A DNA stretch of 37,401 nt from Novosphingobium sp. (GTDB taxonomy: Bacteria; Pseudomonadota; Alphaproteobacteria; Sphingomonadales; Sphingomonadaceae), in the NCBI GenBank assembly GCA_026400375.1, contig JAPLPG010000285.1, positions 1 through 37,401 on the forward strand, written 5' to 3'. The stretch's first letter is position 1. The number at the start of each line of letters is the position of its first letter. Made by a program: the position numbers and the translations under genes. Positions 3,559 through 37,401 of the stretch are shown here, one piece after another. The notes below the pieces were generated by a model, which was given only the letters and a program-made list of their open reading frames with translations, made no database searches and was not told the origin of the DNA.

Positions 3559-4421
3559 TCCGCGATATCGACGAGACGCAGGCGCCGCTGCTGGATCACC
3601 TGCTGGAATTGCGCACCCGCCTGTTGCGCTGCGTCTATGCGCTGCTGGTCACGTTTGCGATCTGCTTCTATTTTGCCGACGATATCTTTGCGGTGCTCGT
3701 GCAGCCGCTGGTTCATGCCTTCCCGCCGGGGCAGGGCAAGCTGATCTACACCAAGCTGTACGAGGCCTTCTTCGTCGAGCTGAAAGTGTCGATGTTCGCG
3801 GCATTCCTGGTCAGCTTTCCGATCATTGCCAACCAGATGTGGGCGTTCGTGGCGCCGGGCCTCTATGCGCGCGAGAAGAAGGCGTTCCTGCCGTTCCTGC
3901 TGGCAACGCCGGTCCTGTTCACGATGGGCGCCAGCCTGGCCTACTTCGTGGTCATGCCCACCGCGTTCAAATGGTTCCTCGGTTTCGAGGGCAACAAGGG
4001 CGGACTTCAGCTGGAAGCGTTGCCGGGGACGGGCGATTACCTGAGCCTGGTGATGCAGTTCATCCTGGCGTTCGGCATCAGTTTCCTGTTGCCGGTGCTG
4101 CTGATGTTGCTGAACCGTGCCGGGATCGTCACGCGCGCCCAACTGGTGACTGCGCGGCGTTATGTGATCGTGGGCATTTTTGCCATCGCTACGGTAGCGA
4201 CGCCGCCCGATGTGGTTTCGCAACTGATGCTGGCGATCCCGCTGCTGTTCCTGTTCGAAGGCACGCTGATCCTGATGCGCTTTACCGAAAAGGCCGATGC
4301 CAGGCGCCGGGCCGAGGAAGAGGCGGCGCGGGCTGCCGAACAATTGGCGGCAGACCAACTGGCGGCCGACCAACTGGCTGCTGGGCAAATGGCTGCTGGG
4401 CAGACACCGCTGCTGCCTTGA
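3555..4421 (+). CDS. tatC: Sec-independent translocase subunit TatC with repeat tail
   Basis: TatC is the six-helix inner-membrane receptor for twin-arginine signal peptides. The 288-aa protein has the N-terminal cytoplasmic motif LLDHLLELRTRLLRCVYALL, the periplasmic loop and membrane segments expected (YARE around residue 105, PFLLATPVLFTMGASLAYF, then the helices around SFLLPVLLMLL and IATVATPPDVVSQLMLAIPL). After the last helix there is a charged segment and then four in-frame pentapeptide repeats (QLAAD, QLAAD, QLAAG, QMAAG) from a 15-bp DNA tandem repeat. The tail is cytoplasmic by topology and probably dispensable. The ATG overlaps the tatB stop. Confidence 0.95.
   Translation: MIRDIDETQAPLLDHLLELRTRLLRCVYALLVTFAICFYFADDIFAVLVQPLVHAFPPGQGKLIYTKLYEAFFVELKVSMFAAFLVSFPIIANQMWAFVAPGLYAREKKAFLPFLLATPVLFTMGASLAYFVVMPTAFKWFLGFEGNKGGLQLEALPGTGDYLSLVMQFILAFGISFLLPVLLMLLNRAGIVTRAQLVTARRYVIVGIFAIATVATPPDVVSQLMLAIPLLFLFEGTLILMRFTEKADARRRAEEEAARAAEQLAADQLAADQLAAGQMAAGQTPLLP
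4341..4400 (+). repeat. four tandem 15-bp units within the tatC tail
   Basis: Four consecutive 15-base units start at 4341, 4356, 4371 and 4386. Each begins CAA, and they differ at a few positions. The unit length is a multiple of three, so copy number can change without breaking the tatC frame. The units encode QLAAD twice, then QLAAG and QMAAG. Confidence 0.85.
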
Positions 4422-21436: not shown

Positions 21437-22884
21437 TCAGAGCGAATAGTACATGTCGAACTCGACCGCCGACGGCGTGGTTTCCCAGCGCATCACTTCG
21501 GGCCACTTCAGTTCGATGTAGGCTTCGATCTGGTCCTTGGTGAAGACGCCGCCCTGCAGCAGGAAGTCATGATCGGCTTCAAGGCTGTCGAGCGCTTCAC
21601 GCAGGCTGCCGCACACGGTCGGAACTTCAGCGAGCTCTGCCGGCGGCAGGTCGTAGAGGTTCTTGTCCATGGCTTCGCCCGGGTGGATCTTGTTCTTGAT
21701 CCCGTCGAGGCCTGCCATCAGCAGCGCGGCATAGCACAGGTAAGGGTTGGCCATCGCATCGGGGAAGCGGAATTCGACGCGCTTTGCCTTGGCGCCAGCG
21801 CCATAGGGAATGCGGCACGAGGCCGAGCGGTTGCGGGCCGAATAGGCGAGCAGCACGGGCGCTTCATAGCCCGGCACCAGACGCTTGTAGCTGTTGGTGG
21901 TCGGGTTGGTGAAGGCATTCAGCGCCTTGGCATGCTTGATCACGCCGCCGATGAAGTACAGGCACATTTCCGAAAGGCCGGCATAGCCATTGCCGGCAAA
22001 GAGCGGCTTGCCTGCTTCCCAGATCGAGATGTGGGTGTGCATGCCCGAACCATTGTCGGTCTTGATCGGCTTGGGCATGAACGTGGCGGTCTTGCCATAG
22101 GCCTGCGCGACCTGCTGCACGACGTACTTGTAGACCTGCATGCGGTCAGCCGTCTGCACCAGCGTGCCGAAGGTGAGGCCGAGTTCATGCTGGGCCGAAG
22201 CCACTTCGTGGTGGTGCTTGTCGCAGGGCAGGCCCATTTCGATCATGGTCGAAACCATTTCGCCGCGGATGTCGACGCAGCTGTCGACCGGGGCGACCGG
22301 GAAATAGCCACCCTTGGCGCGCGGACGGTGGGCGAGGTTGCCGCCGTCATAATCGCGGTTCGAATTGGTCGGCAGTTCGATATCGTCGATCTTGAAGCCG
22401 TTGCCGTCGTAGCCGTCATAGAACTTGACGTCGTCGAACAGGAAGAATTCGGCTTCGGGACCGACATAGACCGTGTCGCCAAAGCCGCCAGCCTTGACGA
22501 AGGCTTCTGCGCGCTTGGCGGTCGAGCGCGGATCGCGGGCGTAGAGCTCGCCGGTCGAGGGTTCGACGATGTCGCACACCAGGATCAGCATCGGCGTTGC
22601 CGAGAACGGATCGGTCCACAGATCAGCATCGGCGAGGCCGAGAACGGATCGATGAAGACCGAGTCGAGATCGGGCTTGAGGATCATGTCCGATTCGTTGA
22701 TGGCCTTCCAGCCTTCGATCGACGAGCCGTCGAACATCAGGCCGTCTTCCAGTTCATCTTCGCCGATCAGGCCGGCGACCATGGTCAGGTGCTGCCACTT
22801 GCCCTTCGGATCGGTGAAGCGCAGATCGACCCACTCGATTTCCTCGTCCTTGATACGGGCGAGAATGTCCTTTGCACTTGCCAT
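21437..22884 (-). pseudogene. glnA: type I glutamine synthetase, interrupted by a 38-bp tandem duplication
   Basis: GlnA makes glutamine from glutamate, ammonia and ATP. The 5' part (from ATG 22884, after the ribosome site AAGAAGGA) reads normally through [30 protein letters not shown] and [16 protein letters not shown]. There a segment of 30 bases recurs 38 bases later and the frame is lost. The other frame continues with [20 protein letters not shown] through [25 protein letters not shown], the SGMHTH motif, [14 protein letters not shown] and the closing [20 protein letters not shown]. Removing 38 bases gives a continuous 469-residue protein, the usual GlnA length. As written no full enzyme can be made. 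Because this gene is rarely dispensable, a sequence error is a serious alternative. Confidence 0.9.
22583..22650 (-). repeat. imperfect tandem duplication of 38 bp inside glnA
   Basis: A 30-base segment at 22583-22612 recurs at 22621-22650 with only two adjacent differences (TT against AG), separated by eight unique bases. The period, 38, is not a multiple of three and causes the glnA frameshift. On the coding strand the copies read ...GGCAACGCC... and ...GGCCTCGCC..., encoding ATP or ASP. Confidence 0.9.
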
Positions 22885-22979
22885 CGCTGGTCCTTCTTTA
22901 TGCCCCCTGGGAGAGGTTCGGGGGGTATCTGGGGTTTTCTGGAGGCGTGCCCGTCCACAGGCCTACCCCCGCTTTGACG

Positions 22980-28320: not shown

Positions 28321-28421
28321 GCGTTTTCAAAGCAGGTGGAATCACCTGCTGACTCGGAAAACGCGGTAAAACAAGAATCTAAAGCAGCTGGGCCGATGCA
28401 GTCGCATCGGAATCTGCTTTA
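28321..28421. repeat. two-hairpin interspersed repeat at the 3' end of the TonB receptor gene
   Basis: Two nested palindromes stand side by side. The first pairs GCGTTTTC with GAAAACGC around an inner GCAGGTG/CACCTGC stem (28321-28364). The second pairs TAAAGCAG with CTGCTTTA around an inner CCGATGC/GCATCGG stem (28380-28421). Elements of this two-part build are a known kind of dispersed repeat in sphingomonads (from memory, not searched). The right edge contains the stop codon of the TonB receptor gene. Confidence 0.75.
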
Positions 28422-31400
28422 GAAGTCGGCCTGGAAGCCAACCTTGAAGTAACGACCGAGGATGCCCTGACCGCCCTGGATCGGGTTGTAGAGGTAGGCA
28501 CCATACGTCACGACATCGACCGGCGGCATGTTGTCGAACAGGTTCAGCGCGGTCAGCGACAGCGTGAAGCGATCGTTGACCTTGAAGCGGGTCTGCAGAT
28601 CGAAGGTGATGTAGCGCGGCACGTCGCAGCCGGTGGGGCTGAAGCCGGGGTTCAGGCCGCAGTCCTTGTAGTCGGTGCCCTGGTCCATGGCCGAGAGATT
28701 GTAGCCGCCGAAGTAGTTTACGGTGGTGTTCAATTCCACGTTATCGTCGAACTGCAAGCCGTTGAGCCAGTACCCGTGCCACTTCGGAGTGCCCGAACCT
28801 GCGGTCAGGTTGAAGTTGCCGAGCGTGCCGTCGTAGCGTTCAAGCCCGCCACCGCTGGCCGTGAGATCCGATTCCAGCTTCAGGATGTAGCTGGCTTCGA
28901 GGTGGCTGGTGAACTGGATCGAATCGGTCAGGCGAACCCGGCCATCGATCTGGAAGTCCAGACCCGAAACCCGCTGCGTATCCGCATTGATCTGCTGCGC
29001 CTGGATAAAGGCGATGCGCGGCGTTGCGTTGGGAAAGTCGGGGCTGACGGCATCCGGGATCACGGTGTAACCGTCGGGAATGGCCTGGCCGCTGTAGTAG
29101 GCGGCAAGAGCCGGCGTGTTGGACGGCGTCGTGATCACGCCCGTCTTCTTGATGTTGTAGTAGTCCACCGAGAAGCTGAGGTTGCGGATCGGCTCGAAGA
29201 ATACGCCAGCGGTGAAGCTGCGCGACTTTTCGGGCTGCAGGTTGGGTGACGCCAGCGTGGTCTGGCCATACGAACCCGAACGGATGTAGGTCGGGCAGGT
29301 GCTGTAGCCGTTCGGACCATCGCCGGTGTTGCAACCATACTGCGCCAGATAGGCATTGTTGAAGTTGCTGACCGAGTTGGTCACGAAGCCCGTGGTCGGC
29401 AGGGCGTTGGCCTCACCGAACGACGGAATGCGGAAGCCGCGCGAGTACGTGCCGCGGATCAGCAGCTGGTCGATCGGCTTGAACTTGATCCCTGCCTTGG
29501 GCGAGAACGCATCCTGTCCGCTCGAATACTTGTCGTAGCGGCCCGATACGTTGACTTCGACCTGGTCGAGGACCGGCGCATTGGCTTCGAAGAAGCCCGA
29601 GTAGACCCAGCGGCTGCCCTTGGTGCCGAAGGCGTTGAGCGTGAAGTAGCGCTGCGTCGGGCCGAAGTAGTCGGGGTTGCCGGAAGGCGCGTCGACCGCT
29701 TCGTAGCGAGCGCCGGCACCAACCGCGATCTGCAGCGGTCCGCCGGGCAGCTGGAACAGATCCGTGCCAAGCGTGCCCTGGAACTGGATCTGGTCCGACG
29801 TTGCGTTCAGCCTTTGCGTCGGCCGAACGAAATCGTTCTGGGCCTGCGTGTTCTGCGTGGGATCGACGAAGTTGTAGGTCCCGCGCGCAATGGCCGACAG
29901 CAGGTTGGCAATGTAGACATAGCCGACCTGCGTGCGCTGCAGGTCGTTGTGCATCGCCGTCGCGCCGAAATCGAAGTTGATGTTGTCAGTCAGGTCGCCC
30001 TTGATGCCGATGGCACCGCGATAGGCACGATTGCGCGTTTCGTTGTAGGTTGCCTGGTCGAACAGGCGGCCCTGGATGCGCGCAAGCTGTCCGGCTGCGG
30101 CAAACGGGTTGTTCGGGTTCAGCGTGCCGTTGGTGGCGTTGCAACCGGTGTTGAGGCCGCTCGCATCGCCGACGCCATTGGCGCAGACGAAGACCGGCAG
30201 CGTCAGCTGGAACGAGCCGGGGGCGCGCGTGGCCGAGTTGGTCGAGGTCGAGAAGCCGGGGAACAGGATGCCCGCGTTGGCATTGACCGCGATGCGCTCT
30301 GGCAGGCCGGTGTAGGACGACTTGCTCTGGACGAAGTTGAATTCGCCATACGCTTCGATGCTGTCGCTAAGCGCTGCCGTCACGCGTCCCGAAACGCCCC
30401 AGCGTTCGATATCCGGCTGGATAACGCCATAACGCCGGGTGATGTCGGTCGTGCAGGTGGACAGGGGGGCTGATGCGTTGGCAGCAATCTGCGCCGGCGT
30501 CAGGTTGTAGGGGCTGTCGCAGCCAACGGTGTTGAGCAGCTGGAAACGGCCCAGCGCGGTCGTGTTGGTCGGATCATAAGGGCGGACCAGCAGCGGGCCA
30601 CCGGTGCCGGTGAAGCTGGTGGCGGTTGGCGAATTGAGCCGGTCATCGCTGCCGCAATCGCCATCGGGCGAGCAGACGCCGCGCTGATCATCGGTGTTGA
30701 AAGGATATTCGCGGTCGCGGTTCATCAGCTTCTTGCTGCGGTAGTAGAAGCCCGAGACGTAGGCGTTGTAGCCATTTTCCGCGATGTCGCCAACGCCGGC
30801 CGTCAGCGACAGGCGGTACTGCGGGGCATCGCCGCGTTCGGACACGCCGGCTTCGCCGCGTGCGCGCACGCCCTTGAATTCACGCTTGGTGATAATGTTG
30901 ACCACGCCGGCGATCGCATCGGCACCGTAGGACGAAGAGGCGCCGTCACGCAGGATTTCAACGCGGTCGACGATGTCGTCCGGAATGGTGTTGAGGTCGA
31001 CGAAGTTGCGCGAGCCGTCATCGGCGAGCGGGTAGTAGGCAGCGCGCATGCCATCGAACAGCACCAGGGTGGAGTTCGTCGAAAGGCCGCGAAGCGAAAT
31101 GGCCGATGCGCCTGCAGCGAAAGCGCCATTGGCGGTGAACGAGTTGGTCAGCGCCGGGCCATTGTTGGCAGCAAGCGACTGCAAGCCTTCCTGGACGGTC
31201 GAAATGCCGCGCTGGTCGAGGTTGTCCTGCGTAACGGTCGTGACCGGCGAGACAGTCTCGGTATCGGTGCGGCGCAGGATTGAGCCGGTGACGACGATGG
31301 CCTGGCCATCACCGCAGCTGGGATCATCGGGTTGCGTGCTGCAATCGACGCCTTGCGGGGCGGCGGCCGTCGTGGCGTCCTGTGCCGAGGCGGCGGTGGA

Positions 31401-31469
31401 GATCAGCGCGAAGCCCATCGCCAGCGGTGTTGCGCCCGACCGGAGCGCGGAAAGATACTTCATGTTCAC
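28419..31469 (-). CDS. TonB-dependent outer-membrane receptor
   Basis: A protein of about 1016 aa. The signal peptide (LSALRSGATPLAMGFALIST, cleavage after ASA) is followed by a short Cys-containing segment, the TonB box region with AIVVTGSILRR, the plug domain (ISTVQEGLQSLAANNG, LRGLSTNSTLVLFDGMR and VDRVEILRDGASSSYGADAI) and the beta-barrel, ending YFKVGFQADF with terminal Phe. The type is the sphingomonad receptor for unknown, often sugar, peptide or metal-complex substrates. Start choice: GTG at 31469 has AGAGGA seven bases ahead; the ATG two codons later (31463) is the alternative. The frame is open much further upstream but without family sequence. The stop lies in a dispersed repeat. 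Confidence 0.9.
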   Translation of the reverse strand: MNMKYLSALRSGATPLAMGFALISTAASAQDATTAAAPQGVDCSTQPDDPSCGDGQAIVVTGSILRRTDTETVSPVTTVTQDNLDQRGISTVQEGLQSLAANNGPALTNSFTANGAFAAGASAISLRGLSTNSTLVLFDGMRAAYYPLADDGSRNFVDLNTIPDDIVDRVEILRDGASSSYGADAIAGVVNIITKREFKGVRARGEAGVSERGDAPQYRLSLTAGVGDIAENGYNAYVSGFYYRSKKLMNRDREYPFNTDDQRGVCSPDGDCGSDDRLNSPTATSFTGTGGPLLVRPYDPTNTTALGRFQLLNTVGCDSPYNLTPAQIAANASAPLSTCTTDITRRYGVIQPDIERWGVSGRVTAALSDSIEAYGEFNFVQSKSSYTGLPERIAVNANAGILFPGFSTSTNSATRAPGSFQLTLPVFVCANGVGDASGLNTGCNATNGTLNPNNPFAAAGQLARIQGRLFDQATYNETRNRAYRGAIGIKGDLTDNINFDFGATAMHNDLQRTQVGYVYIANLLSAIARGTYNFVDPTQNTQAQNDFVRPTQRLNATSDQIQFQGTLGTDLFQLPGGPLQIAVGAGARYEAVDAPSGNPDYFGPTQRYFTLNAFGTKGSRWVYSGFFEANAPVLDQVEVNVSGRYDKYSSGQDAFSPKAGIKFKPIDQLLIRGTYSRGFRIPSFGEANALPTTGFVTNSVSNFNNAYLAQYGCNTGDGPNGYSTCPTYIRSGSYGQTTLASPNLQPEKSRSFTAGVFFEPIRNLSFSVDYYNIKKTGVITTPSNTPALAAYYSGQAIPDGYTVIPDAVSPDFPNATPRIAFIQAQQINADTQRVSGLDFQIDGRVRLTDSIQFTSHLEASYILKLESDLTASGGGLERYDGTLGNFNLTAGSGTPKWHGYWLNGLQFDDNVELNTTVNYFGGYNLSAMDQGTDYKDCGLNPGFSPTGCDVPRYITFDLQTRFKVNDRFTLSLTALNLFDNMPPVDVVTYGAYLYNPIQGGQGILGRYFKVGFQADF

Positions 31470-32012
31470 GTGGCAGTCCTCTTGTCCTGAACCCCTGCCG
31501 CCATGAACTGGAGACAGGCTCTGCCACCCGGCTGCGGCGCCTTGGTTTAGTGCGGCAAGCCATAGCGTCGGCGGCAGAGAAGCCCCTGTTTGGCTAGGCA
31601 AACCCACGCTTTCAAACGTGAAAGGAAGATTGTGGCTATTACGCCAGCTGGTGTTGTGAGCCTGCAACAAGGCATTGAAAGTCGGTCGAAAAAACACCTC
31701 GGCAACGCTTCGTCGCAAATTGGAATTTATTGAAACATAACCTTCGTTAACGTAATTTTTAATTGCTGAAGAAACCATCGTGGGCTTGATATCTTGCGCC
31801 CGGATGACGCTCTGCGATCCGTCGCGGCGCGATCTGATGCTCCGGCACTTTCGAGGACGGAATTTGTTCCCTGAAAAACGTGATTGCCGTGGAAAAATGC
31901 GGTGAATTGAAGGACCTATGCCACGGCCATGCACGATCGGTGACCATCACAAGGATATCCGCGTGGTTGCGCTCGCCATCGCTTGCCACTGATCCTCACT
32001 CTTCCGCGCAAC
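31470..32012. other. intergenic region without a recognisable gene
   Basis: About 540 bases upstream of the TonB receptor gene. The middle part (about 31690-31780) is notably AT-rich for this genome and probably holds the receptor's promoter, although no clear -35/-10 pair could be chosen. Short open frames exist on both strands, but none has a ribosome site with protein-like sequence, and no RNA gene was recognised. Confidence 0.6.
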
Positions 32013-34954: not shown

Positions 34955-36613
34955 TCAGGCGGCGAGATCGACCTTAGCGGACCGCCAGTTCCACGGGAGC
35001 AACTCGTCGATCCGGCTGATGGGATGATCGGCGATGCGGGCGAGGACGTCGGCTAGCCAGGCCTGGGGATCGACGTCGTTGAGGCGACAGGTCTGGATCA
35101 GCGAGTAGGCGACCGCCGCCCGCTGGCCACCGCGATCGGAGCCGCAGAACAGCCACGATTTGCGTCCGAGGGGCACACAACGCAGCGACCGTTCGGCGGA
35201 ATTGTTCAATAGGCAGACCCTGCCGTCGCCGAGAAAACGGGTGAACGCGTCCCAGCGGCGCAGCATGTAGTTGATCGCCTTGGCGAGATCGTGGTTACGC
35301 GAGATCCGGGCGAGCTGCGCGTTCAACCATTCGTGCAGCTCGGCCATCAGCGGCGCGCTGAGTTCCTGACGGACGACGAGACGCTCGGCCGGGCTCTTGC
35401 CATTGATGTCGCGCTCGATGGCGAACAGGGCATCGAGCTTCTGCACAGCCTCGAGCGCGATCGGATAGACGACCCCGGCCTTCTCGCCGCGGCTCTTCTT
35501 GCGTGCCGCGCCCTCGACGTCAGCCAGCTCGAAGAATTTCCTCCTCGCATGCGCGAAGCATCCAGCCTCGAGGATCGGCCCCGGCTGCCGGTTCGGAGCG
35601 TAAAGCTCGTTGTAGCCGGCATAGGCGTCCGCCTGCAGAATCCCGGACCAGGCCGCAAGATGACGTCGTGGGTGATCGCCGCGCCGGTCGCGCGAATAGT
35701 AGAAGACGACCGAGGGCGGATCGTTGCCCCCGAAGGGCCGGTCGTCGCGCACGTAATCCCACAATCGCCCGGTGATGGTCTTGCCCTTGGCCATGATCGG
35801 CACGGTGGTGTCGTCGCCGTGCAGTCGCTCGGCGGCCAGCGTGTGGGTCTCGATCAGCTGGTAGATCGGCATGAGCGCGAGACAGGCCTCGCCGATCTGG
35901 TCGGTGAGCGTCGATACGCTGAGCGGCACGCCTTCGCTGGCAAAGCGCTCGGCCTGGCGGTGGAGCGGCTGATGCTGGCCGTACTTGTCGAACAGCAGCA
36001 TGGCGAGGAATCTGGGCCCGGCCCAACCGCGGGGAGTGACGTGGAACGGCGCCGGCGGCTGCGTGATCTTCTCGCAGTCCCGGCAAGCGAACTTCTCGCG
36101 TACCGTCTGGATGACCTTCCAGGAGCGCGGGATCACCTCAAGGGTCTCGGTCACATCCTCGCCGAGCTTGGACAAGCGGTCGCTGCCGCAGGCTGGGCAC
36201 GAGCACGGCGTGGAGACGACCACGCGTTTGCGCGGGAGGTGATCGGGGAACGGCTTCCTGACAGGCTTCTTGCGCTCGAATGCGATGACGGTGGTCGTCT
36301 TCGCCGCGGCAGCTTCGGCGGCGAGCTCGTCCTCGGCCGCATCGGCTTCGAGATCTTCGAGCTCGAGCTCCATCTGCGCAAGCAGTCGCTCGGTGCGTTC
36401 GGCGCTGGGGCCATACTGCTCGCGCCGCAGCTTGGCGTTCTGCAGCTTGAGATGCGCAATCATCGCCTGGGCTGCGGTCTCGCGGGCGCGGGCATTGGCC
36501 AAGGCGGCCTCCGCTTCATCCGCCCTCTGGGTCGCCATCGCAAGCAGCTTGAAGCGCTTCCACGTTGTTCGGAAGGGGCGAAACGGCGGCTTCCACGGCA
36601 TCGAGTGAATCAT
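34955..36613 (-). CDS. tnpC: IS66 transposase TnpC (N terminus frameshifted)
   Basis: The DDE transposase of the element. The 552-aa reading has a coiled-coil N-terminal segment ([20 protein letters not shown]), a zinc-finger region ([11 protein letters not shown] and FACRDCEK), the DDE core with [20 protein letters not shown] and [11 protein letters not shown], and a C-terminal tail with [20 protein letters not shown]. The first 25 or so residues in this frame ([16 protein letters not shown]) are not family-like. Another frame from GTG 36626 reads [18 protein letters not shown] then NNVEALQA, which is, and runs into the main frame with a one-base change near 36541-36552. The true protein therefore probably needs that frame restored. 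Confidence 0.88.
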
Positions 36614-36655
36614 CGCCGCCGCTCACGCGCAAGCCGAAAATAGGCTAATCCAAAG

Positions 36656-36997
36656 CTATCCCGCGCTTTGCGGACGCCAGGAATATTGCGGGTTCCTCCA
36701 GTCGATCCCGTCCAGCAGGCAGGCAAGCTGCGAACTCGTCAGCGACACCACGCCGTCCTTTGCCGAGGGCCAGATGAAACGCCCCTTCTCGAGGCGCTTG
36801 GCGTAAAGCGACATGCCGATCCCGTCGTGCCAAATGATCTTCACCAGCGCGCCGCTGCGGCCCCGGAAGACCCAAAGATCGCCCGCGAACGGGTCGCGCG
36901 AGAAAGTGTGCTGCACCATCGCCGCCAGGCTCTGCATCCCGCGACGCATATCGGTGTGGCCCATCGCGATCCACACCCGCGCACCGGGAGGGATCAC
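36656..36997 (-). CDS. tnpB: IS66 accessory protein TnpB (Orf2)
   Basis: A 113-aa protein matching the IS66 Orf2-like family: MIPPGARVWIAMGHTDMRRG, MQSLAAMVQ, the FAGDLWVFRGRSGALVKIIW core, and the KRLEKGRFIWP segment. It is needed with TnpA for efficient IS66 transposition, although its biochemical role is not well defined. Its ATG overlaps the tnpA stop as ATGA, giving translational coupling; the tnpC start is about 30 bases further. Confidence 0.93.
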   Translation of the reverse strand: MIPPGARVWIAMGHTDMRRGMQSLAAMVQHTFSRDPFAGDLWVFRGRSGALVKIIWHDGIGMSLYAKRLEKGRFIWPSAKDGVVSLTSSQLACLLDGIDWRNPQYSWRPQSAG

Positions 36998-37362
36998 CGC
37001 AGCGCCTTCAGGGCTGAAGCCACCTGCGCCGGCGAGGCCGATGCGAAAATGCTCACCCGCTTACCGCGCGCCAGCTCGACAATCATCGCGGGTTGCAGAC
37101 CTGGGCGGGCCGCTCCTTCGTCCTCCACGACTACTGCCTCGGCAAAGCTCGGTGCCTGCAGCATGTCCTGCGCCGGCTCGGCTTGAGCTTCGCGGATCTT
37201 GCGCCGCCAAGTGTAGATCAACGCCGTCGAGATATCGTGCCGTCGGCAAACCTCCGCGACGCAGGCCCCCGGCGAAAACGCCTCGGTCAGAATGTGCAGC
37301 CGCTCTTCGTCACTCCAACGCCGGCGCCGTTCCGGCCCCGAAAACACCGTGATCTGCCCCAT
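36994..37362 (-). CDS. tnpA: IS66 protein TnpA (helix-turn-helix)
   Basis: A 122-aa DNA-binding protein of the IS66 TnpA class, with RRRRWSDEERLHILTEAFSP and the helix-turn-helix VAEVCRRHDISTALIYTWRR, and a C-terminal VELARGKRVSIFASASPAQV segment. The ATG at 37362 has GGAG at seven bases and is preferred to a TTG at 37383 (adds MRALERS). The 3' end overlaps tnpB. Its promoter should lie in the last 40 bases of the window, close to the element's right end. Confidence 0.9.
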   Translation of the reverse strand: MGQITVFSGPERRRRWSDEERLHILTEAFSPGACVAEVCRRHDISTALIYTWRRKIREAQAEPAQDMLQAPSFAEAVVVEDEGAARPGLQPAMIVELARGKRVSIFASASPAQVASALKALR

Positions 37363-37401
37363 CGACCGCTCCAAAGCGCGCAAAAAAGAGCACGCTTAAG
37401 A

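Follow-up and report, generated by a model that had tools for sequence, protein, structure and literature searches.

A near-repeat that breaks glnA in a Novosphingobium draft genome is probably an assembly join of two alleles

False duplications of haplotype contigs have been described in vertebrate assemblies (PMC8081667), and metagenome assemblies contain unsupported local errors, scaffolds built despite overlapping flanks and, rarely, joins between organisms (PMC7111523). The glnA locus described here resembles both. As in the heterotype false duplication of PMC8081667, a single assembled sequence contains both alleles of a locus; there, the cases described concern the haplotypes of diploid vertebrates, whereas ours comprises 38 bases of a bacterial draft, contains no Ns and holds alleles that possibly come from two genera. 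As in the metagenome-assembled genomes of PMC7111523, a short join error would spoil a protein-coding gene and overlapping flanks would have stayed unmerged; the overlap case of that paper has Ns inserted, whereas the ends at glnA abut without Ns, and the case is known here from the assembled sequence alone. The gene itself is that of a type I glutamine synthetase (GlnA) beside a PII gene, with both Pfam domains and the order glnA-PII-map. Unlike type I GlnA, it is out of frame between its two domains as assembled.

The window, that is, the whole stretch of DNA analysed, is a complete contig (C335, 37,401 bases). The draft to which it belongs comprises 338 contigs with a total of 3,700,487 bases and is 80.67% complete and 1.84% contaminated; from its fragmentation and completeness we infer that the draft is a metagenome bin or comes from a mixed culture. 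In this contig, glnA occupies 21437-22884 on the minus strand, with its start ATG at 22884 and its normal stop at 21437. The 5' part (22621-22884, minus strand), encoding the beta-Grasp domain, is in frame from the ATG, and the 3' part (21437-22620, minus strand), encoding the catalytic domain, runs in another frame to the normal stop. Accordingly split are the Pfam matches, with Gln-synt_N (PF03951) in the 5' piece 22652-22884 and Gln-synt_C (PF00120) in the 3' piece 21437-22591, so that the two domains of a type I enzyme lie in two frames and not in a single open one. Translation from the ATG at 22884 yields 99 residues before a stop, GlnA-like at first and off frame afterwards. The frame is lost exactly at a pair of near copies, 22583-22613 and 22621-22651, which the repeat search returned as 31 bases each, 94% identical and spaced by 38; the 5' part is in frame into the 22621-22651 copy, and from the 22583-22613 copy the normal glnA frame resumes and continues to the stop at 21437. 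The near-identical repeat that the earlier note had placed where glnA changes frame is thus confirmed. Near-tandem matches scoring at least 25 were absent from 40 simulated sequences of the window's length and order-2 composition, while the window has two such offsets, the other being an in-frame 15-base repeat (4331-4387) near the end of tatC.

Relatives of the gene show what its length should be. The best named relatives are from Novosphingobium, the nearest gene being about 90% identical at the DNA level, and a DNA match to glnA was found in 185 of the 195 genus genomes searched. The best matches within the genus fall short of the query by exactly 38 bases (in G110, for instance, 1424 versus 1462), so the extra length equals one repeat unit. 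We checked 167 loci, comprising 150 distinct sequences, with some genomes contributing more than one locus; two of them (L030 and L059) lack the anchor motif and went unread. All 165 readable loci are open with one unit, from the MFDGSS motif over up to 400 codons, and none contains a second 38-base unit. DPF is present in 163 of them, and the remaining two (L156 and L170) have EPF at this place. A type I glnA also occurs on a 138,559-base plasmid record of Sphingomonas parapaucimobilis (NZ_CP155757.1, 48968-49769), 85.8% identical over the matched part.

The earlier note had described 30-base copies, 28 of 30 identical, that sit 38 bases apart. The near copies are real, but the full unit measures 38 bases against 38 (22583-22620 versus 22621-22658), with 32 of 38 positions identical and six different, and the intervening eight bases are no mere spacer. 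These bases (22613-22620), TGTGGACC, align with the codons preceding Asp-Pro-Phe in other glnA genes (V-W-T) and therefore belong to the copy on the gene's 3' side as homologous coding sequence, which sets the unit at 38. In gene sense, GTC TTC ATC GAT CCG (V F I D P) of one copy is followed by TG TGG ACC GAT CCG of the other. Each of the six differences affects a codon that is variable in natural GlnA genes. Both the VFI and the SASPMLI of the 22621-22658 copy are present among members of the genus, and both the ASP and the ATP form of the repeat are present among relatives. Of the 44 genes in the group labelled other, three have V-W-T before DPF (two under the title Sphingomonas, L098 and L105, and one, L092, under Proteobacteria bacterium), as against none of 73 distinct genes labelled Novosphingobium; a W at the middle codon was found in 17 of the 44 and in one of the 73. 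The copies thus behave as different alleles of one locus rather than as copies of each other, and, as far as their codons tell, the near-repeat looks like two natural alleles of the same codons and not like one sequence duplicated. Since the copies differ codon by codon as natural alleles do, we reject a simple tandem duplication.

The same differences bear on the proposal, made in the earlier note, of a real, reversible 38-base duplication that would turn glutamine synthetase off and on. In its favour are the two directly oriented near copies, whose length is not divisible by three. However, a phase-variable switch calls for identical or nearly identical units and a fresh duplication would leave identical copies, whereas here six of 38 bases differ, codon-wise, as in the alleles of other species. 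The coding nature of the supposed spacer and the lack of anything comparable in the 165 readable relatives' loci, where other species have a single unit, also leave this proposal unsupported, and a literature search, judged by titles and the beginnings of abstracts, brought up no reversible duplication of this kind in glnA. We give the reversible duplication next to no weight and consider a real off-switch in glnA very unlikely.

The affinities of the two copies differ as well. We compared the two glnA pieces separately with the aligned relatives (165 loci, with the window's own, L142, unused; 164 in the comparison of the copies). The Novosphingobium set consisted of L003-L024 and L113-L141, grouped in the window's genus, plus L032-L064, L066, L069 and L073, several of which bear no more precise title than Sphingomonadales, Sphingomonadaceae, Pseudomonadota or Proteobacteria and were assigned according to hit rank; the other set consisted of L065, L067, L068, L070-L072 and L074-L111. 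Loci from one further search belonged to neither of the two. The copy on the gene's 5' side (22621-22658, minus strand) is of the Novosphingobium type, with its best match (97%) in L115 of the same genus. For the copy on the 3' side (22583-22620, minus strand), which is of a Sphingomonas type, the six best matches (92%; L070, L092, L098, L111, L157 and L165) all lie outside the genus. Affinity along the gene was assessed with 85 full-length genes of the Novosphingobium set (73 distinct) against 44 of the other set. Before the join, the gene is in no 60-base window closer to the other genera. After it, four overlapping 60-base windows are closer to them (differences of -0.067, -0.017, -0.033 and -0.017); they start within the first 30 bases of this second piece and together span 22620 to 22531. 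The second piece also gives -0.017 in two distant windows (positions 886 and 916) and is elsewhere equally close or closer to Novosphingobium. When the Novosphingobium genes were left out one at a time, none of the 73 distinct ones reached the observed difference at that place, with either 60- or 90-base windows, and 8 of 3285 Novosphingobium windows across all places were equally extreme. With G103, which over most of the contig is the closest of the ten relatives, the gene shares an identity of 0.80 in 22500-22619, compared with 0.88-0.96 in 21900-22499 and 0.90-0.95 in 22620-22979; some windows outside glnA are likewise low (0.82-0.84). Most of the foreign signal resides in the 22583-22620 copy itself: over the following 66 bases a genus member, L013, matches best (0.955, versus 0.939 for L098). 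The possible foreign-affinity tract beside the join (22531-22620, minus strand) is therefore clear in the copy, and weak and approximate beyond it. Because the signal is short and a genus member matches best just beyond the copy, a Sphingomonas source of the 3'-side copy is, on base-level similarity, no more than likely.

Gene order, including glnA-PII-map, is kept on both sides of glnA in ten relatives. Exceptions in the fetched stretches are the TonB-receptor, for which G154, G103, G045, G112, G177 and G192 gave no match, as well as chap and the genes from nagZ to hibdh in G112, aldehyde dehydrogenase in G192 and the rsiV-like gene in G103. The TonB-dependent-receptor-like gene (28419-31934), named by eye, lies between argC and a ferredoxin gene, as it does in G110, G181, G062 and G208. 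A transposase set of the IS66 type (34955-37383) fills the right end of the contig; its tnpC has four IS66 Pfam matches, and two shorter frames beside it were named tnpB and tnpA by position only. Contigs commonly break at such sets. As both flanks near glnA are collinear with ten relatives, we reject a wrong join of unrelated contigs.

The glnA break is not the only one in this contig. Frame comparison with the ten relatives flagged three places with a support of at least seven: 9290 (eight relatives), 22620 (seven) and 32754 (all ten). An opposite-strand row at 22613-22627 (support 5) marks the glnA break once more, and support was 3 in two further rows. Alignments showed that 74 bases present in relatives are absent after 9301 (9301/9302, plus strand) from ate/bpt, a gene for an aminoacyl-tRNA-protein transferase with ATE_N and ATE_C that is the sole ATE_C match in the draft, and that 11 bases are absent after 32755 (32755/32756, plus strand) from an alkA-type DNA glycosylase gene (HhH-GPD). 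When the 40-kb stretches of the ten relatives were each compared with the nine others, nine had no place with a support of at least 5, and rows with a support of 3-4 occurred in seven of the ten. The tenth, G110 (L192), had two such places, at about 5407 and about 9559, flagged by seven and eight of the nine others; these are perhaps sequencing indels.

In three other contigs of the genome (L180, L185 and L189; 20 kb each, five relatives) no gene-internal break was found: the five places with a support of at least 2, one of them with 4, all proved intergenic when aligned. The error rate is thus not uniformly high, and a high rate throughout the genome is not supported. A further 201,950 readable bases of the genome contained no frame-breaking near-tandem repeat inside a gene. 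Two near-tandem repeats there have offsets not divisible by three, and both are imperfect ones at or past gene ends: L176 2101-2164, at or just past the gene's 3' end, and L191 18365-18434, of the type CTCGTCCTGAGCCTG..., past the gene's 3' end. The latter type is dispersed in sphingomonads. In 556,037 bases of control sequence from other species there were 18 near-tandem matches, two of them with an offset not divisible by three.

Three conserved genes out of frame on one contig might also mean a genuine loss of function, with glnA, ate/bpt and alkA decaying in this lineage. Against this, the 3' part of glnA is still 93-97% identical at the protein level to that of the ten relatives, conservation of the ate and alkA matches is similar to that of their neighbours, and the three other contigs are free of gene-internal breaks; we therefore hold such decay to be improbable. 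Length differences of +38, -74 and -11, each breaking a conserved gene in an otherwise collinear contig, point to joins made with wrong spacing, so far as alignment with relatives can tell.

A real insertion is a further alternative. A short glnA piece of the Sphingomonas type could have entered the chromosome by out-of-register, homology-aided recombination, leaving two alleles in tandem and glnA broken. Such an event would account equally for the two-allele anatomy and for the foreign affinity of one copy. However, it would destroy the sole glutamine synthetase found, even if another could be missing from a draft that is 80.67% complete; a common cause in the assembly is suggested by the length differences that the contig also has in ate/bpt and alkA; and a second unit is absent from all 165 readable loci of relatives. 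We judge this insertion unlikely, if somewhat less so than decay of the three genes. That natural out-of-register recombination set a short piece of glnA from another genus next to the resident gene, and that the cell manages with a glutamine synthetase that is broken or rescued in translation, appears a little less probable than the insertion as such.

The reading we prefer, at a probability of about 0.87, is that the near-repeat is not a real feature of the genome but an assembly artefact, in which contig ends overlapping by 38 bases and carrying different alleles were abutted without merging. Two contigs would meet within glnA, their ends covering the same 38 bases and derived from, or extended by reads of, different alleles, one of the Novosphingobium and one of the Sphingomonas type. 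The mismatched ends would have been left unmerged and set end to end without Ns, and the outcome would mimic an imperfect 38-base tandem duplication and shift the glnA frame. Reads from a second organism would have to be present in the sample. The 5' end of glnA is relatively conserved (median 60-base identity at positions 120-210 of 0.93-0.95 in the genus and 0.88-0.91 outside it), which makes read sharing between species plausible. Weighing against an artefact are the shortness of the stretch that carries the foreign affinity, an error rate that is not uniformly high, the lack of frame-breaking near-tandem repeats inside genes in the further 201,950 bases and the absence of a second glnA piece from the bin. 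The earlier note's option of an assembly join between allelic or strain variants is well supported by the two alleles, the greater closeness of one of them to another lineage, the fragmented draft contig and the two other frame-breaking length differences.

The draft yielded one glutamine synthetase. The second glutamine synthetase gene that the earlier note proposed to look for did not turn up in this 80.67%-complete draft, nor was a second glnA piece found in the bin, although it could have been binned apart. If two versions of the 38 bases, from two organisms or strains, were abutted at assembly, the cell's own glnA is probably intact. Taken at face value, the window would portray a bacterium that cannot make glutamine, and this error, together with the false loss of two other genes, would pass into pathway predictions based on the draft. 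Such cases can be recognised by a simple test: if the spacer can be aligned to codons found in other species, the near copies are two alleles and not a duplication.
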